Positions 22,039 through 36,495 of a DNA stretch of 64,000 nt are shown one piece after another. The position numbers and the translations under genes are program-made. The stretch spans positions 64,972-128,971 of the forward strand of contig JAKVBT010000006.1 in the NCBI GenBank assembly GCA_022446905.1, in the 5' to 3' direction. The notes under the pieces were generated by a model that made no database searches, was not told where the DNA came from, and saw nothing but the letters and a program-made list of their open reading frames with translations. The DNA is from Phycisphaerales bacterium. GTDB taxonomy: Bacteria > Planctomycetota > Phycisphaerae > Phycisphaerales > SM1A02. Each line of letters starts with the position of its first letter. The stretch's first letter is position 1.

Positions 22039-24525
22039 TCAGGCTGTCCAGTTGGCGATGACCATGAGCAGGTCGCCCATGTCGATCTGGCCACTCTCAT
22101 CCAGATCTGCACCCTGACAATTGTCATTGGCGTCATCACACTGCTCGCCCCATCGGCTGATGATGATCATGAGGTCGTCGATTGCGACGACACCGTCGAG
22201 ATCAATATCACCGGGGAGCACGATCACGCAGTAGGGCAGGTCAATGCACATGGTCTCTGTGCAGGTGGACCCGTCGTGGAAGCCGATCTCCAGATCGATG
22301 CACACGGTGGAACCTTGGGCGGCGCCTTCCAGGACGGTGTCAAAGGCCCAGGAGTGCAGCGGGGGCAGGGCCATGCTGACGTGATCTGGCGTCAGTGTGG
22401 TGCCAGCTGGCGGGAACAAGGAAACACTGGTAATGGTTGTGCTTGGGTCCATATTGCTGACACCGAAGGTGAGTTCGAAGTCATATGGAGCCCAGACGCC
22501 GATGCAATCCACATCGAGCACTTGGATAGTTGGGCAGTCCACCTGTGGAACTGCGCTGCTAGCCACAACGACGTCACCAAGCATGGTCTTGTCGCCCCAG
22601 GTGAGGTTGTCTTGATAATCGATCAACACGCTGTCGATGACGGAGCCACCGGTGGTGGGAAGGCCTTGAATGCCGTACATGCGCGTTCCCGCAGTCAGTT
22701 TCATGGCGTCAGCGCCGCACCAGGTGTGCTCGGGTGTTGCATCGCAGCCGCCGGTCGAGCTGTAGATGTAACCAGAGCCACCGACTTCATAGCTGTTCAC
22801 GGAAGGTGTCCAACCACTGGTCGTGCACTCATACTCGAGCAGGCGTGACTGATGTGCGCCCAAGCTGCTGTTGCCCTGCATAGAACGTTCTGCAAGAAGC
22901 AGGCTGCCACTTTGGGTGAATCGCATATCTGCGATTGGTGCAGATCGACCTTGGCCGGCATAGAGGTCGGTGGTAGTGATTTCCAGCATGGTCGTACCAG
23001 GAATGAAGCCGCCAGCAGGGTCAAGTTTGATCGACCAAACTTCGTTTGCGCTGGTGCTGGTGTAGTTGACGAGGTCTTCATTCCACAGGCTGTAGTAGAG
23101 ACGTCCATCGTGCGCTTCTACTGCCCAAGGTCGATCGCCCAGAGCTGTCCAGCCACCGTTACCGTTCCATGGTGTTCCATGGTCGTAGAAGTCGATGATC
23201 GCGCCGCTCATGTCAAGGCGATAGATGCGACCGTCACCAAAGTTGGACACGAAGAACTGTTCATGATCACAGTCATAGGTAATCGAGCCAAGGCTGCCAT
23301 CCTGTGCGTTGGGCAGTAAGGCAAAGGTGCTAATGGCGCCACTGTAGGTGTCGATCTTGTAGACAGCGCCCCAGCCAGCGGGTCCCATGTCATCGGTATT
23401 CCACGTCTTGGTGGCAGTGACATAGATGTTGCCATCGCCGTCAAGGGCCAATCCAAAGATGCTGCCGAGGTTGTCACGGGTCCAGGTCGGGTGGGCATAG
23501 CGGTTCAGGGCAAACCAACTATCTAGTGGTGCCGTGGCCACGCCAGAGAGATCAAACACGGTGACGACAAAGTCGCCCAGGATGCTTGGTGATGCAGTTT
23601 GAACTGCAATGTCACCACCACCGAAGGCGGCATAATTGGGGTCCTGATAGCGTGGTCTGCCAGCGCAGTCAGCGCCCGGGGTGCTGCTGCACGCGGGCTC
23701 GCAGTTGATGCCTGGATCAGAGCAGAGTGTGCCAGGGCCGTACCAAACGCCAAGAGCATCCTCGCAAAGTTGGAAGCTGATTTCGACACAGAACCAGTAG
23801 CCCGATCCTGGGTCACCTTCTTCGATGCAGCAAGCGCCATCTTCTTCAAAGACGTCACATTCAACCATGGGGTCAGAGCAGGTTGTGCCTGCGCCATAGA
23901 AGACTCCGCCAGCGGCGTCGCAGTCCATCCATGAGATGACGCTGCACCAGTAGATGCCGTCGCCATCCTCATCGATGCAGCATGCGCCGGGCTCATCGCT
24001 GGGGCCGCATTCATCGGCAATGTCGAGGCAGCTAAGCCCTGGATACCACGTGCCACCGACGTCTTCACACTTGTAGTCCTCCATTTCCATGCAGTTCCAA
24101 GCGCCATCAGCATCTTCCCAGCAGCACGCACCGAGATCTTCCAGCGGTTCGCAATTGACACCGGGGTCGCCGCAGAGCACACCCGCGCCGTACCAGATGC
24201 CGGAGTACTCAGCACACAAGTGCCATGGAGCGTTGATGCAGTACCAGCCAAGGTCTGCATCTTCAATGCAGCACGCGGCCGGGGTGTCGTAGTGTGGGCA
24301 TTCGACCATGGGGTCGCTGCAATCTGTGCCGTTGCCGTAGAAGTAACCTCCGTAGATATCACACACATCGGGTGTGACAACATCACAAAGCATGACATTG
24401 GCGGAGACTTCATAACAACAAGCACCCTCCTGATTTGCATTGGCAGCGATGGCTGATCCAGTCAGGAGGATGGTGGACAGGCTGATTGCCATCCGTGTGG
24501 CGATGTGGTGGGTGGTGGAACGCAT
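22039..24525 (-). CDS. Secreted Cys-rich repeat protein with dockerin
   Basis: An 828-residue exported protein. A signal peptide (residues 1 to about 28, ending in SAIAANA) is followed by five tandem repeats of about 45-50 residues (about 33-280), each opening with (G/A)ACC and closing with a YGxGTxCSDPxxxC-like block, six Cys per unit. A central domain (about 290-690) has repeated WT/GDG/YDC elements that look like a beta-propeller, then a beta-rich domain, and finally a type I dockerin with two calcium loops, DIDLDGVVAIDDL and DLDESGQIDMGDL. Dockerins dock on cohesins; no cohesin gene is in the window. The terminal dockerin may instead act in surface attachment or sorting, as is often suggested for planctomycetes. 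Function unknown. Confidence 0.85.
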   Translation of the reverse strand: MRSTTHHIATRMAISLSTILLTGSAIAANANQEGACCYEVSANVMLCDVVTPDVCDIYGGYFYGNGTDCSDPMVECPHYDTPAACCIEDADLGWYCINAPWHLCAEYSGIWYGAGVLCGDPGVNCEPLEDLGACCWEDADGAWNCMEMEDYKCEDVGGTWYPGLSCLDIADECGPSDEPGACCIDEDGDGIYWCSVISWMDCDAAGGVFYGAGTTCSDPMVECDVFEEDGACCIEEGDPGSGYWFCVEISFQLCEDALGVWYGPGTLCSDPGINCEPACSSTPGADCAGRPRYQDPNYAAFGGGDIAVQTASPSILGDFVVTVFDLSGVATAPLDSWFALNRYAHPTWTRDNLGSIFGLALDGDGNIYVTATKTWNTDDMGPAGWGAVYKIDTYSGAISTFALLPNAQDGSLGSITYDCDHEQFFVSNFGDGRIYRLDMSGAIIDFYDHGTPWNGNGGWTALGDRPWAVEAHDGRLYYSLWNEDLVNYTSTSANEVWSIKLDPAGGFIPGTTMLEITTTDLYAGQGRSAPIADMRFTQSGSLLLAERSMQGNSSLGAHQSRLLEYECTTSGWTPSVNSYEVGGSGYIYSSTGGCDATPEHTWCGADAMKLTAGTRMYGIQGLPTTGGSVIDSVLIDYQDNLTWGDKTMLGDVVVASSAVPQVDCPTIQVLDVDCIGVWAPYDFELTFGVSNMDPSTTITSVSLFPPAGTTLTPDHVSMALPPLHSWAFDTVLEGAAQGSTVCIDLEIGFHDGSTCTETMCIDLPYCVIVLPGDIDLDGVVAIDDLMIIISRWGEQCDDANDNCQGADLDESGQIDMGDLLMVIANWTA

Positions 24526-26544: not shown

Positions 26545-27951
26545 ATGATGCGAAGTGCGCGAGCCAATATGTGGGTCTTGGTTTTTAGTTTGGGATTGAT
26601 GCTTGCTGGCTGCTCATCGCGTTCGATCGTGTTCGATCAGCATGTCCGTGAGTCAACATTCGAGGTGTACCTGAAGGCCCTCGGAGAGTGCTACCCAGAT
26701 GCGGAGGCATGTGGTCTGCATGCGCAAGAGTTTGAGGACAGGTGGCGGGCCGAAGTTGTAGATTCAGAGACAGTCACCGAGTACTACCACGCACTAGCAC
26801 GCATGTGCAGTGAAGTTGGAGATCCCCATCTTGTGTTCAAGCCAAACTTTGAACTTTGGGAGCAACTCGACGGCCCACTCGGTGCCAGTGACCTTGCTGT
26901 AATCAACTTGAATGGTCGCGCTGGACTTTGGTTCCTCAGTGCTGAAGCGGTCGATGACATGCCTTTGCAGCGTCAAATCCGTGATTTTAATGGATGGACA
27001 GTCCATTCACTTCATGGAGCAAAGTTGCAACGCTCAATGCTCACTCACCCGCTGAATATTGGTCCTCAAGGGTCCACCTTTGTGATCGAGTTGCAATCGC
27101 CCGATGGCACAAAGACCGCAGAGTTGATTCGGCGGCGGGGGCTCAGCCTGCATGTGCAGCATCGACATGGAGCACGAGTCAATTTAGGTACGCAGTTGTA
27201 TGCCAAGGCCAGACATGCCAATCGTTCATTTTTGGAATCAGTTTCAACAAGCGATTCCGCGGTCCATCATGGCACCTATATCTCAGTGTGGAATATCGAT
27301 GGTGTTGGGGTTCTGGTTTGGGAGCCAGGAAAGCATTTTCCTGGAGATGACGAGCAACTCAGGTTATTGCGTGCGGATTTGGACGCTGCAGGAGAGGTGT
27401 TGCGTGGCGTGGAATGTGCGGTGATTGACTTGCGCTATCAGTCAGGTGGTTCTTATCCGGGCTTTGCTGCGGTGATGGAGTCTCTGATGTCTGAAAGTCT
27501 GACTTTCAAATCTGCGCGTGCAAGGTCAGAGCTCTTTGGTCTGCTGAGTGTGACCCATGCTTCTGATGTGACCGAGAGCCCTTCCATCATTGGCAGTGCA
27601 AAACACACAGTCATTTTGGTCAATGAGCGCACTGCAAGTTATGGAGAGTGGATGGCTTCTCTATTGCGTCGAAATCATGCTGGAACCACCATAGGAGCTC
27701 GCACGAGCGGAAGTGAATATTGTGTGGTTGATGTCGCCGGGCCGGATGGTTCCTTACTCCGCTTTGGTGGAGATCCTTTCGAGCGATTTGATGATGTTCC
27801 GGTATTTCAAACCGTTGGTCTGACGCCAGACCGACTGGTAGCTGTGAATCTGTCAGACTTTCCAAGTCGATCCATCGAAGACGTGTTAATGCAGGCACAT
27901 GCTCGTCAGTGGGAAGAGGCGTGGTCAGTTGTGGGATCTTGTCCCCCGTAG
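26545..27951 (+). CDS. S41-like lipoprotein peptidase
   Basis: A 468-residue lipoprotein: the signal peptide ends in LMLAGC, a lipobox with Cys as the lipidation site (residue about 23). The C-terminal part resembles the S41 (tail-specific) protease fold: YISVWNIDGVGVLVW, VECAVIDLRYQSGGSYPGF and ILVNERTASYGEWMASLLRR, where the Ser in TAS aligns with the catalytic Ser of the family, then GARTSGSEY. No PDZ domain is obvious, although residues 125-200 may be a diverged one. Adjacent ATGs at 26545 and 26548 give the same signal peptide, and the open frame upstream is not needed. Substrate unknown. Confidence 0.68.
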   Translation: MMRSARANMWVLVFSLGLMLAGCSSRSIVFDQHVRESTFEVYLKALGECYPDAEACGLHAQEFEDRWRAEVVDSETVTEYYHALARMCSEVGDPHLVFKPNFELWEQLDGPLGASDLAVINLNGRAGLWFLSAEAVDDMPLQRQIRDFNGWTVHSLHGAKLQRSMLTHPLNIGPQGSTFVIELQSPDGTKTAELIRRRGLSLHVQHRHGARVNLGTQLYAKARHANRSFLESVSTSDSAVHHGTYISVWNIDGVGVLVWEPGKHFPGDDEQLRLLRADLDAAGEVLRGVECAVIDLRYQSGGSYPGFAAVMESLMSESLTFKSARARSELFGLLSVTHASDVTESPSIIGSAKHTVILVNERTASYGEWMASLLRRNHAGTTIGARTSGSEYCVVDVAGPDGSLLRFGGDPFERFDDVPVFQTVGLTPDRLVAVNLSDFPSRSIEDVLMQAHARQWEEAWSVVGSCPP

Positions 27952-28052
27952 ATGGTGATGCGTGCTGGGGGGATCAATCATGTGCTCTTGCAGGCATCTC
28001 TGGAACGCAGTGCAGATCTCCGTGGTGTCACTGCCCACATTCTGTACTTACC

Positions 28053-28532
28053 ATGCTGAGCACGATGCATGATGCGATGGAACAGATCGAGTTGCCCCAT
28101 GAGTGGACGGTGCATCCGATTCGGAATCATCCCATCAAGGGACTATGGACCTCCCTGCTGGTGCTCGTCTGTGGGCTCTTGGTGGCGCTGGCCGTTGGTC
28201 AGGGGCAGGCTGGGCCGCTGGCTGGTGGTGGGGCGATTCTTTTTCAACTGCTGATACTCAATCGCTTCTACCTTCCAAGTCGCTATCGCATCGACGTTCA
28301 CGGAATGGCCGTCAGGTATCCGATTGGTGCCCGGTCAATGCGATGGAGCGAAATTGCACGCTTTCGGCACGATGCCAGGGGTGGGTATGCCTCACCTCGC
28401 CCAAGGGGTGGAGCCTTCGACTCGCGTGGCATCAGTCTGCTCTTTAATGACCAAGGCCCGGCCATTGTGGCTGTCATCACAGCCCATCTGCAGACAAGCC
28501 AATCACATGAAGACACCTCAGCATCTTCTTGA
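28053..28532 (+). CDS. Small membrane protein with PH-like domain
   Basis: A 159-residue protein with two membrane segments (about residues 28-66) followed by a cytosolic region that could form a small PH-like domain: YRIDVHGMAVRYP, then MRWSEIARFRHDARGG. This pattern is seen in short bacterial bPH-type membrane proteins. The ATG at 28053 is chosen because upstream sequence is low quality and overlaps the lipoprotein gene; ATG at 28065 is also possible. No function can be named. It lies upstream of the GlmL cluster but is separated from it by about 55 bases, so it may not belong to that operon. Confidence 0.55.
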   Translation: MLSTMHDAMEQIELPHEWTVHPIRNHPIKGLWTSLLVLVCGLLVALAVGQGQAGPLAGGGAILFQLLILNRFYLPSRYRIDVHGMAVRYPIGARSMRWSEIARFRHDARGGYASPRPRGGAFDSRGISLLFNDQGPAIVAVITAHLQTSQSHEDTSASS

Positions 28533-28588
28533 TCGGTCTGCTTGGGAAACCACCAATGCTTCGCGGATTCGGCTACCATCGCCTGCGT

Positions 28589-28786
28589 ATGTGTCTTCAA
28601 GGTCAAATCGACGTAGTTCCTTGTCAGAGAACTATTTATGTTCTCAGGACAGCGTCAGTTGACCAGCAAGGATGTGGGCGTATAGGTGTGTGGTTGGGCC
28701 ACTTATCAGCGCAGATGATTCGAGCGCAACCTATTGTCAATATTGAAGATGTGCATCACCTACTTGGCTGCGAGGTGAGCCTGTGA
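28589..28786 (+). CDS. Small protein coupled to the GlmL cluster
   Basis: A 65-residue frame (start could also be the ATG at 28556 or 28529) that ends in GTGA, sharing bases with the GTG start of the next gene. That kind of stop-start overlap is repeated throughout the cluster and is the main reason to believe it. The sequence has a beta-strand-like run (RTIYVLRTASVDQQG) and ends VNIEDVHHLLGCEVSL. No family is recognised. Without the overlap it would have been dismissed as chance. Confidence 0.45.
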   Translation: MCLQGQIDVVPCQRTIYVLRTASVDQQGCGRIGVWLGHLSAQMIRAQPIVNIEDVHHLLGCEVSL

Positions 28787-29205
28787 GTTGGCAGGACAAC
28801 TGGCGTCATGCCTTTGCAGTGGAACGGGAAGAGGATCTTGCTCCGACACCGCGACAGATGGAGTTGGTGGACACCCTTTGTCGGGCCGTGGTTCGTCGCA
28901 AGATGATCACTCCAGCGATTCTGACACTGCAGATGTGCAGGCCACTGAACTTCGTGGCTGCCCAAGCCATGCATTTCTTCCGCCCCATTGCCTCGGTGGT
29001 GCTCGATGGTCAGGCCATCAAGGAGTTGGCGACCTTTCTTGAGCAGCGGGGTTCGGTCGAGTACCTTTGCCGCCGTTTGGAGCATTGGGACCGCTTGGGT
29101 CCTGATGCGGAAGATGCCACAGCAACCGTTGTGGATGATCCAGAAGGAGCCTCACAAGCCCCGCCCGGACCCTCGGGCGTTGGCAACGGACCATCCGATG
29201 TCTGA
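28783..29205 (+). CDS. Conserved-looking helical protein of the GlmL cluster
   Basis: A 140-residue protein with a helical middle: MITPAILTLQMCRPLNFVAAQAMHFF followed by a segment ending in LEQRGSVEYLCRRLEHWDRL. From memory, small proteins with a similar 'TPAILxLExxxPLxFxxxQ' core are common in planctomycetes and other groups, but no function is known to me. The C-terminal 40 residues are Pro/Ala rich. GTG start overlaps the upstream small gene, and the stop overlaps the GlmL start by eight bases, which supports membership in the operon. Confidence 0.6.
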   Translation: MSWQDNWRHAFAVEREEDLAPTPRQMELVDTLCRAVVRRKMITPAILTLQMCRPLNFVAAQAMHFFRPIASVVLDGQAIKELATFLEQRGSVEYLCRRLEHWDRLGPDAEDATATVVDDPEGASQAPPGPSGVGNGPSDV

Positions 29206-31033
29206 TACGCCCGCAATCGATCCTGAACAGATCAAGGTCATTCTTGCCACCGACTGTGGCAGTACGACGACCAAGGCCATCCTTATTCAATACGTCGACG
29301 GTGCCTACCGTCAGACGCATCGTGGTGAAGCGCCCACAACGGTGGAGAAGCCATTTGCCGATGTCACGATGGGTGTGGTCAACAGTGTGACTGAAATCGG
29401 CGAACTCGCTGGACGCCGCCTCGTTGGTGATGATGGTCGAATCATCTCACCCGCAACAGAGACTGAAGGGTGCGACATCTATATCTCGACATCGTCGGCT
29501 GGCGGTGGTCTGCAGATGATGGTCGCTGGGGTTATTGCGGAAATGACCGCAGCGAGTGCGAAACGCGCAGCGCTTGGTGCAGGTTCCATCGTGATGGATG
29601 TCATCGCTGCCAATGACGGTCGCCGGCCGCACGACCAGATTCAGCGCATCCGCGATCTGCGTCCGGACATGATTCTCATCTCTGGTGGCACTGATGGTGG
29701 GACAACGGACAAAGTCGTGCAGATTGCCGAACTGGTTGCGCCAGCCAAGCCGCAACCTCGATTTGGTAGTGACTACTCCATGCCGATCATCTATGCGGGC
29801 AATCAGGATGCGCGCGATGCAGTCTCCAATGTGTTTGACGAGGGTGGTTTTGATCTCCAGATCGTTGACAATCTTCGCCCCGTATTGGAGCGAGAGAACC
29901 TCGGGCCAGCCCGAGACAAGATTCATGACATCTTTCTTGAGCACGTGATGGCCCAGGCCCCCGGGTATGACAAGTTGATGGGCTGGACGGGGGCGCCGAT
30001 CATGCCCACCCCTGGCGCTGTGGGCGACATTCTCCAGACGGTGGCTCGCCTGCAAGGCATCAATGTTGTCGGTGTCGATATTGGTGGGGCAACCACTGAT
30101 GTGTTCAGTGTGTTTGATGAGACGTTCAACAGGACTGTCAGTGCCAACCTAGGCATGTCGTACTCCATCTCCAATGTGTGCGCTGAAGCGACCATGCCCA
30201 ATGTGCTGCGTTGGGTCCCGTTCGATATGGACGAACGCGAATTGCGGAACCACGTCAAGAACAAGATGATTCGCCCAACGACCATTCCGCAAACGCGGGA
30301 GGCGCTCATGTTTGAGCAAGCAGTTGCGCGTGAGGCGCTGCGACTGGCTTATAAGCAGCACAAAGAGTTTGCGACCACCCTGAAGGGTGTGCAGCAACAG
30401 CGCACCGTGGGCGACACCTTCAGTCAAGAAACCGGTGGCATGACCATCGTGAACAACATGAAACTCGACCTATTGGTGGCATCAGGCGGCGTGCTCAGTC
30501 ACGCGCCACGCATGCACCAGACGGCGATGATGCTCATTGATGCCTTCGAGCCTGAAGGTGTGACCATGCTCGCCAAGGACTCGATTTTCATGATGCCGCA
30601 CCTTGGTGTGCTTGCCAGTGTTCTCCCGAAGGCGGCCGAGCAGGTCTTTGACCGTGATTGTCTGGTCTATCTTGGGACATGTGTCTGCGCTGCGGGCACG
30701 CCAAAGCCTGGCAAGACATGTTTCAAGTACGAACTATCCGGCAGTGTCAACGAGTCTGGCGAGATCGCCGGTGGGGAACTGAAACTCATTGACATGGGCA
30801 TGGATGATCGGGCGACCATTGCGCTGACACCGGCCCGGGGCATTGATCTGGGTGCTGGCCCAGGCAAGAAGGTTGAACAGGAAGTGCGTGGTGGCACGGT
30901 GGGCCTCATTCTTGATGGGCGTGGCAGGTCTCTGTCGCTGCCTGAAGATCGAGCAACTTGTCAGAAGACCGTACAAGGCTGGCTTGACTCACTGGATGTC
31001 TATGCCCAAGAGAAGGAGGCCGTCGCCGTCTGA
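29198..31033 (+). CDS. GlmL/MutL-family ATPase without a partner mutase
   Basis: A 611-residue member of the ASKHA (actin/Hsp70/hexokinase) superfamily, closest in look to GlmL/MutL, the protein that reactivates coenzyme B12-dependent glutamate mutase. The phosphate-1 loop is ATDCGSTTTKAILIQ near the start, the phosphate-2 loop is VVGVDIGGATTDVFSVFD at about residues 290-308, and the adenosine region lies around residue 430 (LLVASGGVLSHAP). In the textbook setting it sits between glmS and glmE; here no B12-binding or mutase gene occurs, and it is followed by a soluble protein and four membrane proteins in a coupled operon. The upstream open frame to 28988 is a shadow of the preceding gene. 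Family is firm; the real client is unknown. Confidence 0.85.
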   Translation: MSDTPAIDPEQIKVILATDCGSTTTKAILIQYVDGAYRQTHRGEAPTTVEKPFADVTMGVVNSVTEIGELAGRRLVGDDGRIISPATETEGCDIYISTSSAGGGLQMMVAGVIAEMTAASAKRAALGAGSIVMDVIAANDGRRPHDQIQRIRDLRPDMILISGGTDGGTTDKVVQIAELVAPAKPQPRFGSDYSMPIIYAGNQDARDAVSNVFDEGGFDLQIVDNLRPVLERENLGPARDKIHDIFLEHVMAQAPGYDKLMGWTGAPIMPTPGAVGDILQTVARLQGINVVGVDIGGATTDVFSVFDETFNRTVSANLGMSYSISNVCAEATMPNVLRWVPFDMDERELRNHVKNKMIRPTTIPQTREALMFEQAVAREALRLAYKQHKEFATTLKGVQQQRTVGDTFSQETGGMTIVNNMKLDLLVASGGVLSHAPRMHQTAMMLIDAFEPEGVTMLAKDSIFMMPHLGVLASVLPKAAEQVFDRDCLVYLGTCVCAAGTPKPGKTCFKYELSGSVNESGEIAGGELKLIDMGMDDRATIALTPARGIDLGAGPGKKVEQEVRGGTVGLILDGRGRSLSLPEDRATCQKTVQGWLDSLDVYAQEKEAVAV

Positions 31034-31044
31034 GGCGAGGTTGC

Positions 31045-32172
31045 ATGATGGCCAAGGCTTACACACCAGGACTGCTTGTCACTCGTCACAAGACCCATCG
31101 CGTCATGCGACGTCTGCCGATCAGCGGCGATGTGAAGGTGTCTCTCGGTGATGTCGTCACCGCTGACAACATCGTGGCCGAGACAGCGCTGCCAGGCGAT
31201 GTGAACCCAGTCAATCTGTCAAACCAGATGTCCCTTCCGCCCAAAGACGTTGTCGACTGCATGCTGAAAAAGGAAGGCGATCCGATCACAAAGGACGAAC
31301 CCTTGGCGCAGACCAAGGGCCTGTTCGGGATGTTCAAGACCACTGTCAACAGTCGGTATGCAGGCACGGTTGAGACGGTCTCTCCGGTGACCGGGCAAGT
31401 CATCATCCGCGGTGCGCCACTTCCGGTTCAGGTTCGAGCCTACATGGGTGGTACGGTCGTGTCGGTGCGTGAAGGGGAGGGTTGTGAGATTGAAGCCGAG
31501 GTGGCTTATGTTCAAGGTATTTTCGGTGTCGGCGGTGAGACCAATGGCCACATCATGATGGCCTGTGAAGCGCACGATCAGGAAGTGACCGCGGGGCTGA
31601 TCACTGATGACATGCGTGGTGCAGTGGTGATTGGCGGAGCCCGAATGACTGCGGAGTCCATTGAGAAGGCGCGCAATGTGGGTGCTGCGGGCATTATTTC
31701 CGGTGGCATCGATGATCAAGATCTCAAGAACATTCTTGGGTATGACCTCGGCGTGGCAATCACTGGTCGTGAGGAGTTGGGCATTACTGTCATCGTCACC
31801 GAAGGCTTTGGTGAAATCGGCATGGCTGAACGCACGTTTGAGATGCTCCAAAATCATGTTGGTGATCAGGCCTCGGTCAATGGTGCGACACAGATTCGGG
31901 CGGGTGTCATGCGCCCAGAGATCATTATTCCGCTGGCCAGTGCGCCAGCGGATCAAGCCGATCAAGACTTTGAAGAAGGACAATTGGAGATTGGCCGGAC
32001 CCTGCGAGTCATTCGTGACCCGTGGTTTGGCATGATCGGCGAGGTGTCCGGGTTGCCGGCAGAACCCGCCGTTCTTGGTTCAGGATCAAAAGCTCGCGTT
32101 CTGGAGGTGAAGTTCCCCTCCGGAGAGACGGCCATTGTGCCTCGCGCCAACGTGGAACTGATTGAGGAGTGA
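31045..32172 (+). CDS. Soluble barrel-sandwich / KOW-like protein
   Basis: A 375-residue cytosolic protein. The N-terminal half holds repeated beta-hairpin elements typical of barrel-sandwich hybrids (GDVKVSLGDVVTADNIVAE, then TVETVSPVTGQVIIRG and GGTVVSVREGEGCEIE). The middle (about 180-290) looks like an alpha/beta Rossmann-type unit (AVVIGGARMTAESIEKARN, VAITGREELG). The C-terminal about 60 residues read like a KOW element (RVIRDPWFGMIGEVSGLP, then VEFP-type strands and IVPRANVELIE). No catalytic residues are recognised. It follows the ATPase by 11 bases with a GAGG-type ribosome site and overlaps the next gene by four, so it is probably a partner of the ATPase and the membrane proteins. 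Confidence 0.65.
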   Translation: MMAKAYTPGLLVTRHKTHRVMRRLPISGDVKVSLGDVVTADNIVAETALPGDVNPVNLSNQMSLPPKDVVDCMLKKEGDPITKDEPLAQTKGLFGMFKTTVNSRYAGTVETVSPVTGQVIIRGAPLPVQVRAYMGGTVVSVREGEGCEIEAEVAYVQGIFGVGGETNGHIMMACEAHDQEVTAGLITDDMRGAVVIGGARMTAESIEKARNVGAAGIISGGIDDQDLKNILGYDLGVAITGREELGITVIVTEGFGEIGMAERTFEMLQNHVGDQASVNGATQIRAGVMRPEIIIPLASAPADQADQDFEEGQLEIGRTLRVIRDPWFGMIGEVSGLPAEPAVLGSGSKARVLEVKFPSGETAIVPRANVELIEE

Positions 32173-33545
32173 GCGGCATGATCAAGGCCGTAGTCCTCCT
32201 GCTCGCGGCGATCGCTGCGCCGATGTCATCCTTGGCAGCGGTGATAGATCTAGCTCCGCCGACTGATGTCATGGCATCTGATATGCCAAATGACGTCGGT
32301 ACGCAGATGAAGGTGATTTGGGATCTTTCGCCGGACGATGTGACACCGCGGGGTGATGCTCCGCGTCGTGTGACTGGTTACGCCATCTTCCGTAAGGTCG
32401 TGCCAACGCCGTTGGGCTTGGAGAGCACCGCGGAGGCCGCAGCTGATGCCAGTGAAGTTGGCTTCCCCGCCAATTTTGACTTCGAATACGTGCAACCGGT
32501 TGGTTCAGTTGCCTATGGCAACAGCGAATTTGTTGACGAGAATGTCGAGCGGGAGATGACGTACCTCTATGCCGTGATCGCTACAGGGCCGAGGGGCTCG
32601 GTTTCGCCCTTGGCTCAGGCAGAAACGCCGGTCACGGCGCAAATGGAGTATTTCAATGGAGGCAAGTTCTGGTTCCTGATCATTACGCTTGCCATCAGTC
32701 TGGTCATTGTCCTCTTTGTGTTGATTGCGAAGCGAGGCGGGACTGTCAAAGTGCGTCCTATTGCAGGCCTTGAAGCTGTGACGGAAGCAGTTGGCCGCGC
32801 CACTGAAATGGGCAAGCCAGTGTTGTTTGTGCCAGGCATTCTTGACATCAATGACATTCAGACGGTGGCCGGTATCACGGTGCTGAGTAATGTGGCTAAG
32901 ACATCAGCAGAGTACGACGCGCTGCTGAAGGTTCCGACAGCCCGCTCATTGGTGATGACCACTGCACGCGAGACTGTTGAAGCGGCCTATCTTGGGGCAG
33001 GACGCCCGGATGCCTACAACGAAGACAACATCTACTACCTCACTGATGAACAGTTTGGCTATACGGCTGGTGTTCAGGGTGTCATGGTTCGAGAGAAGCC
33101 AGCAGCCTGTTTCTACATGGGCGCCTTCTATGCAGAATCGCTGATTCTTGCAGAGACTGCCAACTCCATTGGTGCTATTCAGATTGCTGGCACGGCCATG
33201 CCTTCGCAGCTTCCGTTCTTTGTCGCAGCGTGTGACTACACGCTTATTGGCGAAGAGTTCTTCGCTGCTTCTGCCTATCTCTCGAATGATCCTGAACAAC
33301 TTGGATCCTTAAAGGGGCAAGACATTGGCAAGGTGATTGCCGGGGCGTTGCTGATCATTGGTTGTCTGACAGCAACCTTGGCGACAGTCACCCCCACGAA
33401 GGTCTTCAAGGTGACAACGCTCTACATCAAGGACAATATTCTTGGAAAAGACGGCATCTCTTTAGATCAGGAGAAAGTCACCAAGATTGATATCGAGTTG
33501 GAAGAATTGACTGCCGACCCGAATCCCCGAGGAGGTGATTCGTGA
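32169..33545 (+). CDS. FN3-like/DUF6754-like membrane protein
   Basis: A 458-residue protein with a signal-like first segment (residues about 5-22), an external domain resembling a fibronectin type III fold (about 28-155; PPTDVMASDMPNDVG opening, YAVIATGPRG strand, SPLAQAETPV end), a membrane segment (about 168-188), a large cytosolic alpha/beta domain (about 195-385; GLEAVTEAVGRATEMGKPVLF, TARETVEAAYLGAGRPD, MGAFYAESLILAETANSIGA) and a second membrane segment (about 390-410). From memory the cytosolic part matches the family labelled DUF6754, of unknown function. The GTG at 32169 overlaps the upstream stop; ATG at 32178 is the alternative. The topology suggests a scaffold joining an external and an internal partner. 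Confidence 0.65.
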   Translation: MSGMIKAVVLLLAAIAAPMSSLAAVIDLAPPTDVMASDMPNDVGTQMKVIWDLSPDDVTPRGDAPRRVTGYAIFRKVVPTPLGLESTAEAAADASEVGFPANFDFEYVQPVGSVAYGNSEFVDENVEREMTYLYAVIATGPRGSVSPLAQAETPVTAQMEYFNGGKFWFLIITLAISLVIVLFVLIAKRGGTVKVRPIAGLEAVTEAVGRATEMGKPVLFVPGILDINDIQTVAGITVLSNVAKTSAEYDALLKVPTARSLVMTTARETVEAAYLGAGRPDAYNEDNIYYLTDEQFGYTAGVQGVMVREKPAACFYMGAFYAESLILAETANSIGAIQIAGTAMPSQLPFFVAACDYTLIGEEFFAASAYLSNDPEQLGSLKGQDIGKVIAGALLIIGCLTATLATVTPTKVFKVTTLYIKDNILGKDGISLDQEKVTKIDIELEELTADPNPRGGDS

Positions 33546-34438
33546 TTGCCAAGAGAACCATCCCGCTCTTTATCGCGGCGATCGTTGGTCTGCTGCTGAT
33601 TGCGACGTACTTCGTTCCCTACACCGAGCAGTGGGGTGCCGATGCGATGGAGATGTTCATCATCCTCGCGGCAGCAGCCATGGCACTTGGTGCGGGCAAT
33701 CTGATTCTGCTCAACATGTCCAAAGTCTCATCGCAACGCCCGGGCTGGGCATATGCGGTTATCACACTGCTGGCTTTCTTTGTCATGTTCATTGTGGGCA
33801 TGTTCAAGATTGGCGCTCTGCCTACAGCAGGGGCACCAGATAACACTTGGACTGCTCCGATCATTCAAGAGGGCGCTCCATTCTGGTGGATGTATCAGTA
33901 TGGCCTAGTGCCGCTGACCGCCACCATGTTCGGCATGCTCGCCTTCTATATTGCGTCGGCGGCTTTTCGGGCGTTTCGAGCAAAGAATCTGGAAGCCACA
34001 TTATTGCTTGGCACCGCTTTCATCGTCTTGCTTGGGCAAGTCTATGCAGGCGTCCTGCTGACGAGTTGGTTGCCGGATTTGGAGAGTTATGTGGCTTCAT
34101 TCCCAGTTGCGGATCAAGACCTGGTCACGGCAGTGGGTATGCAGTTAAGTGCCACGCCTACAATCGATTTGAAAGATGTGACGTTCCGCGGCGTCCCACT
34201 TGCCGCATTGGCAATGGATCAGCAGGCTGTGATTACAACGGCCTACGACCACCTTGGCGGTTGGTGGTATCAACTGCTCAATGGCTTGCGTCTGGAGAAC
34301 CTCACGCAGATGATTCTTGATGTGCCGCAGAAGGCGGGCAATAGGGCAATCATGATTGGTATTGCTCTGGGCATCGTCTCTACTTCGCTCAAGGTCATTC
34401 TTGGTGTAGATCGTTCCTATCTCGGATCGGGAGACTGA
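33542..34438 (+). CDS. Polytopic membrane protein of the GlmL cluster
   Basis: A 298-residue integral membrane protein with about six hydrophobic segments, near residues 7-25, 38-57, 68-90, 112-140, 150-175 and 268-288. A long external loop (about 178-265) separates the last two. No transporter family or conserved charged cluster is recognised. The GTG start overlaps the previous stop (GTGA), and the next gene follows after three bases, so the operon is tightly packed. A channel or a membrane platform for the cytosolic ATPase are possibilities, not findings. Confidence 0.6.
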   Translation: MIAKRTIPLFIAAIVGLLLIATYFVPYTEQWGADAMEMFIILAAAAMALGAGNLILLNMSKVSSQRPGWAYAVITLLAFFVMFIVGMFKIGALPTAGAPDNTWTAPIIQEGAPFWWMYQYGLVPLTATMFGMLAFYIASAAFRAFRAKNLEATLLLGTAFIVLLGQVYAGVLLTSWLPDLESYVASFPVADQDLVTAVGMQLSATPTIDLKDVTFRGVPLAALAMDQQAVITTAYDHLGGWWYQLLNGLRLENLTQMILDVPQKAGNRAIMIGIALGIVSTSLKVILGVDRSYLGSGD

Positions 34439-34441
34439 CTC

Positions 34442-35311
34442 ATGATGAACCTGCTGAGAAATCTCGATCGTCGAATCATCTTTCTTGTCATGGGTTTGGC
34501 TGTGGCAATCCCGATCCTGTTGCGGTTTACGCCTCCAACGGAAGTGACCAATATGGATCGCAGCGTCTTCAATGCCATTGAGGAGTTGCCTGATGGCTCA
34601 CGGATCCTGTTGAGTTTCGACTTTGACCCTGGAAGCCAGGGGGAGTTGTTGCCGATGGCCATGGCATTCACAAGGCACATGGCGGAAAAGCGGCACAAGA
34701 TCTACTTCATGTGCTTGTGGCCGCTCGGGGAACCATTCGTGGAAGACGCCATGGTCATTCTGCGTGAGGAGTACCCAGACTTGAAGTATGGGACTGATTA
34801 TGTCTCGTTTGGGTATAAGCCTGGCAACGAGGCGGTAATCAAGAACATCATCGTGGATTGGAAGCAATTGTTTGTCACGGACTCGCGCCGTGAGGACCTC
34901 AACAATGTGCCAATGACGGCGAACATTAAATCTGCTAAGTCGATGGATTTGATCGTCAATGTGAGCGCAGGTGATCCAGGCACCAAACAGTGGGTGCAGT
35001 ATGCGGCGACGCCCGCAGACATTCCGATGGTTGCCGGCTGTACTGGTGTGCAGGCTCCCTTGCTGTATCCCTACGTCCCATACCCCCTCGAGGGTCTACT
35101 GGCGGCCATTAAGGGCGCAGCAGGCTATGAAAAACTTGTTGTTGATGCGTACCCCAAGTTGAAGGAAGAGCAGTTTGTCAAAGCTCGTTATTCCTCAACT
35201 TCTGCGCTTCAGTACATGGGACCACAACTTGTGGCTCACTTGCTCATGGTGCTGTTGGTCATCATTGGCAACATCATCTTCTTTGTAGATCGGAATCGAG
35301 GTGCGGCATGA
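34442..35311 (+). CDS. Double-anchored protein of the GlmL cluster
   Basis: A 289-residue protein with one membrane segment at each end (about residues 12-30 and 263-282) and a globular alpha/beta domain between. The domain has a strand-rich opening (RILLSFDFDPGSQGELLP), a helix-strand pair (HMAEKRHKIYFMCLWP) and GYKPGNEAVIKNI. It reads like a Rossmann-type unit without a known catalytic motif. With both ends in the membrane and inside-positive residues at the two ends, the domain would sit outside the cytoplasm, but this topology is inferred. It overlaps the next gene by four bases. Confidence 0.6.
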   Translation: MMNLLRNLDRRIIFLVMGLAVAIPILLRFTPPTEVTNMDRSVFNAIEELPDGSRILLSFDFDPGSQGELLPMAMAFTRHMAEKRHKIYFMCLWPLGEPFVEDAMVILREEYPDLKYGTDYVSFGYKPGNEAVIKNIIVDWKQLFVTDSRREDLNNVPMTANIKSAKSMDLIVNVSAGDPGTKQWVQYAATPADIPMVAGCTGVQAPLLYPYVPYPLEGLLAAIKGAAGYEKLVVDAYPKLKEEQFVKARYSSTSALQYMGPQLVAHLLMVLLVIIGNIIFFVDRNRGAA

Positions 35312-36495
35312 GCACTGAGTCAACACCAGTACCTTCTGGCAGTGGCGGTGTGATCGGTTGGACGATCGGTGTGCTCATCATTGTGGTGGGCATGGTCGTC
35401 GCGGGGTTCATGCTCGATGCTGGACAGGTTTATGTTGTTCCAACCCAGAACACATACTCCGAGTTCACCAAGACCACCCCAGTAGACACGTGGCTTCCAG
35501 TTGGCTCAGCGCCAGCACGAAAGTTGCAGTGGAATGGCGCCGAGATTTCTGAGGTCAAGAATCAGAATATGACAAAGGCCGATGCGTTTGCGCTTGGAAT
35601 GTCTGAAGCGAAGTGGCTTCACGCTGAGCAAGAAGGCAAGACGGTTGATGTTGCACATTTAACTGGATCGGAAGTAGTCACCAAATGGTTCCCGAAGGGT
35701 GACCAGGCGGGCACTGGCTGGACCGGGACTGGTCAAACCGTGTCTTGGGAAACCTATACAGCTTTGCCGGCAACGATGGCGGCTGACAAGCGGCCAGAGA
35801 ACGCTCAGTTGTCAATGAGTCGCACATTTGGTATCTGGCTCGCGGCCATCTTCACGCTCTGCATTATGTCGTTCTTGATTGGCGATAACCCGTTCTACAA
35901 AACGGCTGAGGCCGTGGTGGTGGGTGCGTCAGCGGGCTACTACGTGGCTTTGAACTTTTATACCGGCATCGTGGACAAGCTGCTGATTAATGTGTTCCCA
36001 GGCTTAGTGCGGGCATGGACCACACCTGGACTTTCATTCGAGCAGGAGTTTGACTGGATCTATCTCATTCCAGCCATCCTGTCCGTCATGCTGCTGTGCC
36101 GCTTGCTTCCGTCTGGAGGTTGGATCGCCCGCTGGCCGCTGGCCTTCATCATTGGTGCGACTGCTGGGTTCCGACTGACGTCCTATATCGAGTCGGACTT
36201 CTTGGAGCAGATCAAGGCAACAATCACATCACTCTGGGTTGTCAACGCTGGTGACCAGTTCATGTTCTGGCCGTCAGTAGGGGCTGTGGTCATCTTGCTG
36301 GGCGTCTTGTGCTGCCTGGTTTACTTCTTCTTCTCCATGGAACACAAGGGTGTTGTGGGCAAGACGGCACGTATGGGCATCTTCATGCTGATGATTACCT
36401 TCGGTGCGGCATTTGGCTTAACTGTGATGGGGCGGATCACGCTGCTCTCTGACCGGTTCATGTTCTTGTTCAAGGACTGGCTGCACCTGATGTAG
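35308..36495 (+). CDS. Terminal membrane protein of the GlmL cluster
   Basis: A 395-residue membrane protein: one N-terminal hydrophobic segment (about 13-35), an external region of about 130 residues (40-170), then five or six further membrane segments to the C-terminus. Distinct stretches include RTFGIWLAAIFTLCIMSF, GDNPFYKTAEAVVVGASAGYY and WVVNAGDQFMFWPSVG. No family is recognised. Start ATG overlaps the preceding stop (ATGA). It is the last gene of the operon, followed by a weak hairpin and then the promoter of the rpmF operon. Confidence 0.6.
   Translation: MSTESTPVPSGSGGVIGWTIGVLIIVVGMVVAGFMLDAGQVYVVPTQNTYSEFTKTTPVDTWLPVGSAPARKLQWNGAEISEVKNQNMTKADAFALGMSEAKWLHAEQEGKTVDVAHLTGSEVVTKWFPKGDQAGTGWTGTGQTVSWETYTALPATMAADKRPENAQLSMSRTFGIWLAAIFTLCIMSFLIGDNPFYKTAEAVVVGASAGYYVALNFYTGIVDKLLINVFPGLVRAWTTPGLSFEQEFDWIYLIPAILSVMLLCRLLPSGGWIARWPLAFIIGATAGFRLTSYIESDFLEQIKATITSLWVVNAGDQFMFWPSVGAVVILLGVLCCLVYFFFSMEHKGVVGKTARMGIFMLMITFGAAFGLTVMGRITLLSDRFMFLFKDWLHLM

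Follow-up and report, generated by a model that had tools for sequence, protein, structure and literature searches.

The window analysed here is a stretch of 64,000 nucleotides from a Phycisphaerales bacterium (Planctomycetota). It carries an operon in which a long ATPase of the MutL/GlmL type, a soluble protein with a barrel-sandwich hybrid domain (BSH) and four membrane proteins (FN3-DUF6754, M5, M6 and M7) are encoded one after another. These genes constitute one co-inherited, ordered system with two parts, the soluble ATPase-BSH pair and a membrane unit of four proteins, and this system is distinct from mutase reactivators. A small protein, p0, and a PH-like membrane protein often accompany the DUF6754-M5-M6-M7 unit. 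The operon very probably encodes a single machine. That this machine is ATP-driven, resides in the envelope and performs powered transport is plausible, and we hold this reading at somewhat less than even confidence.

Conserved gene order and co-inheritance

Among 41 relatives, DUF6754 was found in 27 genomes and MutL in 23, the latter being a subset of the former. The order ATPase-BSH-DUF6754-M5-M6-M7 was complete in 17 of the 20 loci recovered from relatives of the same taxonomic order. Two of the exceptions were cut by a contig end (L026 and L032, the second also with p0 on the opposite strand). In the third, G017, the ATPase (L027) lay about 0.9 Mb from the BSH-DUF6754 locus (L248) on a 3.84-Mb contig; thus, the system tolerates splitting. 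Phylum-wide, DUF6754-M5-M6-M7 stood in order in 17 of 20 Planctomycetota loci; L094 was cut, L091 was odd, and the third exception, L078, is taken up below. The putative motor had no fixed place in this set: it lay 5' of the unit, 3' of it in L090 and L093, or at a separate site, as in L079 with L250. Tandem repeats of the membrane unit occurred in L075, L080, L085 and L088, and two to three tandem units lay beside one ATPase and/or BSH in L113, L149 and L080.

A scan of named genomes returned at least 561 relatives, from which 80 loci were kept. Judged by record titles, in which metagenome-bin labels may be wrong, they covered at least 15 phylum-level lineages: Armatimonadota, Neomarinimicrobiota, WOR-3, Eisenbacteria, Zixibacteria, Bacillota, Riflebacteria, Cloacimonadota, Stahlbacteria, Poribacteria, Sumerlaeota, Latescibacterota, Edwardsbacteria, CSSED10-310, Mcinerneyibacteriota and others. 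M5, M6 and M7 followed in order after 67 of the 76 DUF6754 genes with 3.3 kb of room, a count that holds one duplicate (a nested open reading frame (ORF) in L167 was scored as two units and is really one). BSH lay within 900 bases downstream of the ATPase for 22 of 24 ATPase genes. Both counts, like the phylum-wide one above, were made on all six-frame ORFs; the caller used for gene calls simply takes the longest ORF, and in GC-rich loci some genes are masked by antisense ORFs. Two or three units were present in 10 of the 80 loci (L167 left out).

The three components were also inherited together. Surveys for DUF6754, BSH and MutL in 392 Planctomycetota genomes, taken as one and the same set, found DUF6754 in 111, BSH in 106 and MutL over its cut-off in 116. 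DUF6754 and BSH were both present in 102 genomes, with DUF6754 only in 9, BSH only in 4 and neither in 277 (phi 0.918). The corresponding numbers were 104, 7, 12 and 269 for DUF6754 and MutL (both, DUF6754 only, MutL only, neither; phi 0.883) and 105, 1, 11 and 275 for BSH and MutL (phi 0.926). Some of the 12 genomes with MutL and no DUF6754 held a short MutL beside other enzymes (L244, L245, L246). Outside Planctomycetota, 40 genomes with DUF6754 contained BSH in 38 cases (missing in G423 and G455) and MutL in 38 (missing in G423 and G437, with only a fragment in G440), each often at another locus; in G455 an ATPase frame continues into a BSH match that is weak (E 3e-4) and lies at the contig end. 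DUF6754 was present in 103 of the 121 genomes of one phylum (that of G421, titled Armatimonadota) and in 12 of 149 of a Bacillota-type lineage (the phylum of G430), where BSH accompanied it in 10 of the 12 and was found in 1 of 20 genomes lacking it (G579). None of 14 control genomes had DUF6754.

The recurrent order in related, phylum-wide and other-group loci, together with the co-occurrence in the 392 genomes, rules out a chance cluster. A phage or defence origin was likewise rejected: eight proteins gave no PADLOC match and two weak PHROGs matches (best E 8e-4), and DUF6754 had no match at E 1e-5 in 72,556 plasmids.

The window belongs to a contig (C56) of a 2.58-Mb genome that is 96% complete and has a single MutL match. 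Its operon spans positions 27909-36495 on the forward strand (Table 1). A sequence-only reading of this DNA had listed an ATPase, a barrel-sandwich/KOW-like protein, an FN3-like/DUF6754-like protein and three further membrane proteins joined mostly by short overlaps, and all of them are indeed present at 29198-36495. From p0 through M7, four of six junctions are overlaps of 4 to 8 bases: according to the coordinates, p0 and the ATPase overlap by 8 bases, and BSH/DUF6754, DUF6754/M5 and M6/M7 by 4 bases each, with gaps of 11 bases between ATPase and BSH and of 3 bases between M5 and M6. The same reading began the operon with the ORF 28589-28786, and this did not hold. That ORF had no significant relative in the 20 related loci (best E 0.056), and the conserved upstream gene is the PH-like gene at 27909-28532, outside the interval then proposed. 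The longer frame 28529-28786 between the PH-like gene and p0 overlaps each neighbour by 4 bases; in several relatives these two genes lie closer to each other than in the window.

Table 1. Genes of the operon, with window coordinates and the basis of each assignment
Feature	Coordinates	Strand	Basis
up207, PH-like membrane protein, conserved first gene	27909..28532	+	PF10756 22 bits (cut-off 22)
p0, small protein, perhaps membrane-associated	28783..29205	+	conserved segment LEM.KPL.FL.SQ...F..P (family alignment)
Long MutL/GlmL-type ASKHA ATPase	29198..31033	+	PF13941 421 bits (cut-off 27), profile 1-450 of 450
BSH, soluble: barrel-sandwich hybrid, uncharacterised central domain, KOW-like end	31045..32172	+	Pfam matches of relatives, alignments
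FN3-DUF6754 protein: signal/transmembrane segment (TM), FN3, TM, alpha/beta DUF6754 domain, TM	32169..33545	+	PF20539 402 bits (cut-off 27), profile 2-256 of 257
M5, membrane protein, ~6 TM, predicted N-in/C-in	33542..34438	+	6 hydrophobic segments in 32/56 rows
M6: TM, Rossmann-like domain (predicted outside), TM	34442..35311	+	AlphaFold model, lysine/arginine bias
M7, membrane protein	35308..36495	+	C-terminal part conserved from ~residue 165

Relatives of up207 were found in 14 of the 20 related loci and also adjoin p0 in other groups; 12 of 14 aligned rows have two hydrophobic segments, and the true start of the window gene is probably 3' of the first GTG. The p0 gene, without a Pfam match, was present in 18 of the 20 loci. 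One hydrophobic segment was seen in 15 of 21 rows of its family; p0 of the window itself is below the threshold. The ATPase start was set at the ATG upstream of the MutL match. Genes of fatty-acid synthesis (plsX, fabH and fabD, named by eye) follow 3' of M7, and plsX follows M7 in 5 of the 20 related loci.

Two observations stand apart. In G455, three tandem paralogous genes of about 185 residues each (L234:129-1871) lie directly 5' of a complete DUF6754 unit and a long ATPase frame. Elsewhere in the window, the reverse strand at 22039-24525 encodes a large protein that, judged by eye, is secreted, contains cysteine-rich repeats and has a dockerin-like C-terminus.

Separation of the long ATPase from mutase reactivators

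MutL/GlmL relatives reactivate B12-dependent mutases. The window ATPase belongs to the same ASKHA family as the GlmL/MutL proteins that go with glutamate mutase, ornithine aminomutase and comparable B12-dependent mutases (PF13941; NF040745, NF040744), with which it shares phosphate and adenosine motifs. It differs from them in its length of about 600 residues, its conserved extension, its placement in a separate clade, its BSH partner in place of a mutase and its tie to membrane proteins. The ATP-binding (phosphate and adenosine) motifs TDcGSTTTKA, VDIGGATTD and SGGVLSHAP are intact in 32 long members. A C-terminal extension of about 120 residues (GG.vG...D.RgRp) is conserved in the same 32 proteins and absent in 11 short ones. 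As a single sequence, the window ATPase found no significant solved relative (best E 0.48).

Phylogenetic analysis of 50 MutL rows split the 11 short proteins from 39 long or paralogous ones with support of 100/100, in a tree with some long branches. The short proteins were encoded beside glmS/glmE, ornithine-aminomutase-like or other enzymes (by eye); of the 13 loci fetched for them, two (L239 and L243) yielded no gene call and are absent from the tree. In L244 and L246, from one Planctomycetota family (f40), metabolic genes, among them a PrpF-like one, stand next to the short MutL according to labels assigned by eye; this may be another B12 mutase context.

Against the GlmL equivalog model the window ATPase scored 224.5 bits, below the cut-off of 475. 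GlmE had no match in the window's own genome, and the neighbours of the ATPase are BSH and membrane proteins; inspection of the ORFs at 24-41 kb by eye likewise agreed with the sequence-only reading that no mutase or B12 gene is nearby. Over the family cut-off, GlmE was found in 2 of 41 genomes tested, both times beside a separate short GlmL/MutL (L235, L236), and two further genomes had matches under it. Taken with the 67 of 76 DUF6754 genes followed by M5-M6-M7, the absence of GlmE, or its presence only under the cut-off, in 39 of 41 genomes including that of the window bears out the expected conservation of order across phyla without glmS/glmE. We therefore rejected a role as mutase reactivator, given the low GlmL score, the confinement of GlmE to sites beside short GlmL and the separate clade of the long ATPase. 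The suspicion that it is not the usual reactivator was thus well founded, the short proteins being mostly linked to mutases. That the ATPase is nonetheless an ordinary GlmL with incidental membrane neighbours, for which its MutL family membership speaks, is extremely improbable in view of the same findings and of the close co-occurrence with BSH and DUF6754.

ATPase and BSH are fused in two loci. The fusion in L226 (G436) has 965 residues, ends within the BSH match and is the only BSH match of its genome. The one in L225 (G448) has 906 residues and is open at the contig end; G448 also has a separate ATPase and BSH. Paralogous ATPase-BSH pairs of G430 (L228, L231) adjoin MacB/LolD-like ABC transporter genes (by eye), as if the motor could pair with other membrane machines.

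Protein anatomy and a possible mechanism

The barrel-sandwich/KOW label proposed earlier held for relatives of BSH, of which 10 of 19 matched RnfC_N, 8 Biotin_lipoyl and 3 KOW. It did not hold for the window protein itself, which had no Pfam match at E 0.01 (Biotin_lipoyl at E 0.014). The central part of BSH is highly conserved and without a family match, and the BSH profile found no significant solved relative (best E 0.03).

The AlphaFold model of the DUF6754 protein (predicted local distance difference test (pLDDT) 85) contains an FN3 domain, a TM, a six-strand alpha/beta domain and a second TM. The FN3 label was upheld on this model by a best match with a VIA Z of 13.4 over 96 residues at 2.1 Å; the FN3 domain filled the match list of the structure search. 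The model of M6 (pLDDT 93.9) shows a TM, a six-strand Rossmann-like domain and a TM; its best VIA match, 1kjn (Z 10.0, 140 residues, 3.4 Å), stood among many generic Rossmann folds. Lysine/arginine (K/R) values for the DUF6754 protein were 4.03 after the TM preceding the domain and 1.32 before it (71 rows), and for M6 3.15 before TM1 and 1.31 after (65 rows). According to the positive-inside rule, this bias predicts that the DUF6754 domain is cytoplasmic and the M6 domain outside. Both alpha/beta domains have conserved polar residues. Homology of these two domains was considered on account of their similar strand-helix order, as was homology of M5 and M7; neither received support from profile comparison, and neither is claimed. 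No Pfam family recurred among 56 members of M5 or 53 of M7. For the anatomy as a whole, a new envelope complex, as the sequence-only reading proposed, is the best reading.

The DUF6754 protein, fourth of the core when p0 is not counted, is a member of PF20539, which Pfam describes as a 'domain of unknown function'. The present analysis connects this family with the long ATPase, BSH and M5-M7. Literature searches, with most subscription journals and bioRxiv outside their reach, found no paper naming DUF6754, PF20539, PF13941, TIGR01319 or 'glmL family', and passages of PMC5167688 and PMC3443676 held nothing on this system.

Two groups of known machines invite comparison. Like Rnf and Na+-NQR, the system combines a soluble protein, whose relatives match the RnfC barrel-sandwich domain, with membrane subunits; unlike them, its nine scanned proteins include no other Rnf or Nqr subunit (Pfam), and an ASKHA ATPase is present. 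By analogy, the system would resemble ATP-binding cassette (ABC) and energy-coupling factor (ECF)-type transporters in that one cytosolic ATPase is shared among several interchangeable membrane units, should the copy numbers given below have that meaning. In contrast to these, the nine proteins contain no ABC_tran or ABC membrane family, and the operon ATPase is of the ASKHA type.

A mechanism can be proposed on this basis. The ATPase would open and close on ATP, with BSH as its docking link to the alpha/beta domain that the DUF6754 protein is predicted to expose to the cytoplasm. The motion might then be relayed via M5 and M7 to the outer alpha/beta domain of M6, so that the ATPase cycle would move or gate a solute across the membrane. 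We infer physical assembly of the proteins, a motor function of the ATPase, the placement of the alpha/beta domains on opposite faces and the service of several units by one motor.

Copy number, neighbouring genes and competing readings

In several genomes of the Bacillota-type lineage membrane units outnumber motors, and one motor may therefore serve several units. DUF6754 matches numbered 10 in G430, 10 in G678 (one a fragment), 5 in G588 (one a fragment), 4 in G600 and 4 in G642; the same genomes had 4, 3, 2, 3 and 4 BSH places, respectively, as grouped by eye from the match list after matches at E above 1e-5 had been dropped.

The genes beside these units, many of them named by eye, included peptidases (C26, S9, M3, M20, M42 and TldD/E-type), D-aminoacylase-like amidohydrolases, amidase, nitrilase and gamma-glutamyltransferase. 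A Pfam tally of 115 near genes gave Amidohydro_3 8, Amidohydro_1 6, TldD/PmbA 4, C26 4, M20 4, DUF885 3 and S9 2. None of these hydrolase families was among the 25 families shown for 115 control genes; a wider script search found 21 control genes that resemble reference hydrolases. The control comprised 20 loci from six of the same genomes. One of them (L291) holds an ATPase-BSH operon, and the control rate was 23% without it and 24% with it. Genes with ambiguous bases, overlapping the unit or shorter than 150 residues (100 in the hydrolase count) were left out, as were L267 and L268 (one DUF6754 match each).

A peptidase- or amidohydrolase-like gene lay within 600 bases at 15 of 36 unit loci, compared with 33 of 310 control gene boundaries (nominal p 1.6e-6), and within 2.5 kb at 19 of 36, compared with 24% of random control points (nominal p 2e-4). 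Neighbours were counted by script with names partly by eye; the 15 was taken by eye from the script list. In the first set of 16 loci, from which the idea arose, 9 had such a gene within 2.5 kb and 8 within 600 bases. In a second set of 20, annotated afterwards, the numbers were 10 (p 0.01) and 7 (p 0.003). Because units adjoin such genes above control, peptide- or amino-acid-like cargo is most likely in the Bacillota-type lineage; its transport is speculative. In L214 and L215, the ATPase-BSH operon adjoins C26-like and P1-like peptidase and D-cysteine-desulfhydrase-like genes (by eye). Among the 80 named loci, one neighbour cluster, of six loci, resembles an oligopeptide-type ABC ATPase, and inspection by eye of the 25 largest clusters revealed no constant third-party neighbour crossing phyla.

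Several points weigh against powered transport. No classical transport family was recognized by Pfam among the operon proteins or recurred among the members of M5 and M7. In L078 (G063), BSH and DUF6754 are adjacent and M5-M7 are not beside them. BSH places exceed DUF6754 matches in G633 (3 versus 1) and G714 (3 versus 2). The hydrolase association was seen in one lineage, and when the 25 largest neighbour clusters from the named loci were inspected by eye, none resembled a peptidase. The reference list of hydrolases was compiled from unit, control and other loci, largely post hoc, and some of its families were first encountered in the second set; moreover, the control measure is not quite identical to that at the units. 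Orthologous loci are not independent, and grouping them by eye lowers the counts to about 12 of 30 within 600 bases (p 3e-5) and 15 of 30 within 2.5 kb versus 24% (p 0.002). Finally, two-component genes stand near some units (HisKA 3 and Response_reg 3 of the 115 near genes).

The full form of the transport reading is a new class of primary active transporter, widespread in under-studied phyla, in which an ASKHA ATPase of the GlmL/MutL type takes the place of an ABC or rotary ATPase and exchangeable four-protein units with alpha/beta domains on both faces handle peptide- or amino-acid-like solutes. In this completeness it is doubtful, a tentative proposal. An alternative that we regard as slightly less credible still is that ATPase and BSH form a chaperone or reactivase, which would load, repair or reactivate a membrane enzyme composed of DUF6754, M5, M6 and M7 and would not power transport. 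The ATPase is, after all, a relative of MutL, whose relatives reactivate B12 mutases; BSH relatives resemble a domain of RnfC, part of a redox membrane complex; the Rossmann-like fold of M6 is common in enzymes, and polar residues are conserved in both alpha/beta domains. However, Pfam recognized no enzyme family in the membrane unit, and the multiplication of units beside diverse hydrolases is a better fit to cargo specificity.

Unlikely, and more so than the chaperone, is a structural or signalling complex of the envelope, a scaffold or a sensor of stress or of the surface, in which ATP binding by the MutL-like protein would act as a switch. The outer FN3 domain, the PH-like protein, the alpha/beta domains on both faces, the presence of DUF6754 in 103 of 121 genomes of one phylum and the two-component genes near some expanded units are consistent with it. 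Ten DUF6754 matches in genomes of 2 Mb would nevertheless be unusual for a housekeeping scaffold, and inspection by eye of the 25 largest neighbour clusters from the 80 named loci showed no signalling family.

DUF6754, the hallmark gene of this conserved and uncharacterised machine, occurs in most genomes of one phylum and, judged by record titles, in at least 15 phylum-level lineages. The machine offers a concrete target for knock-out in Armatimonadota or Planctomycetota, groups in which envelope and nutrient uptake are poorly understood. If the ATPase does act as a motor, a family known for the repair of B12 enzymes would have been recruited to power a membrane machine, which would be a new use of the ASKHA fold.

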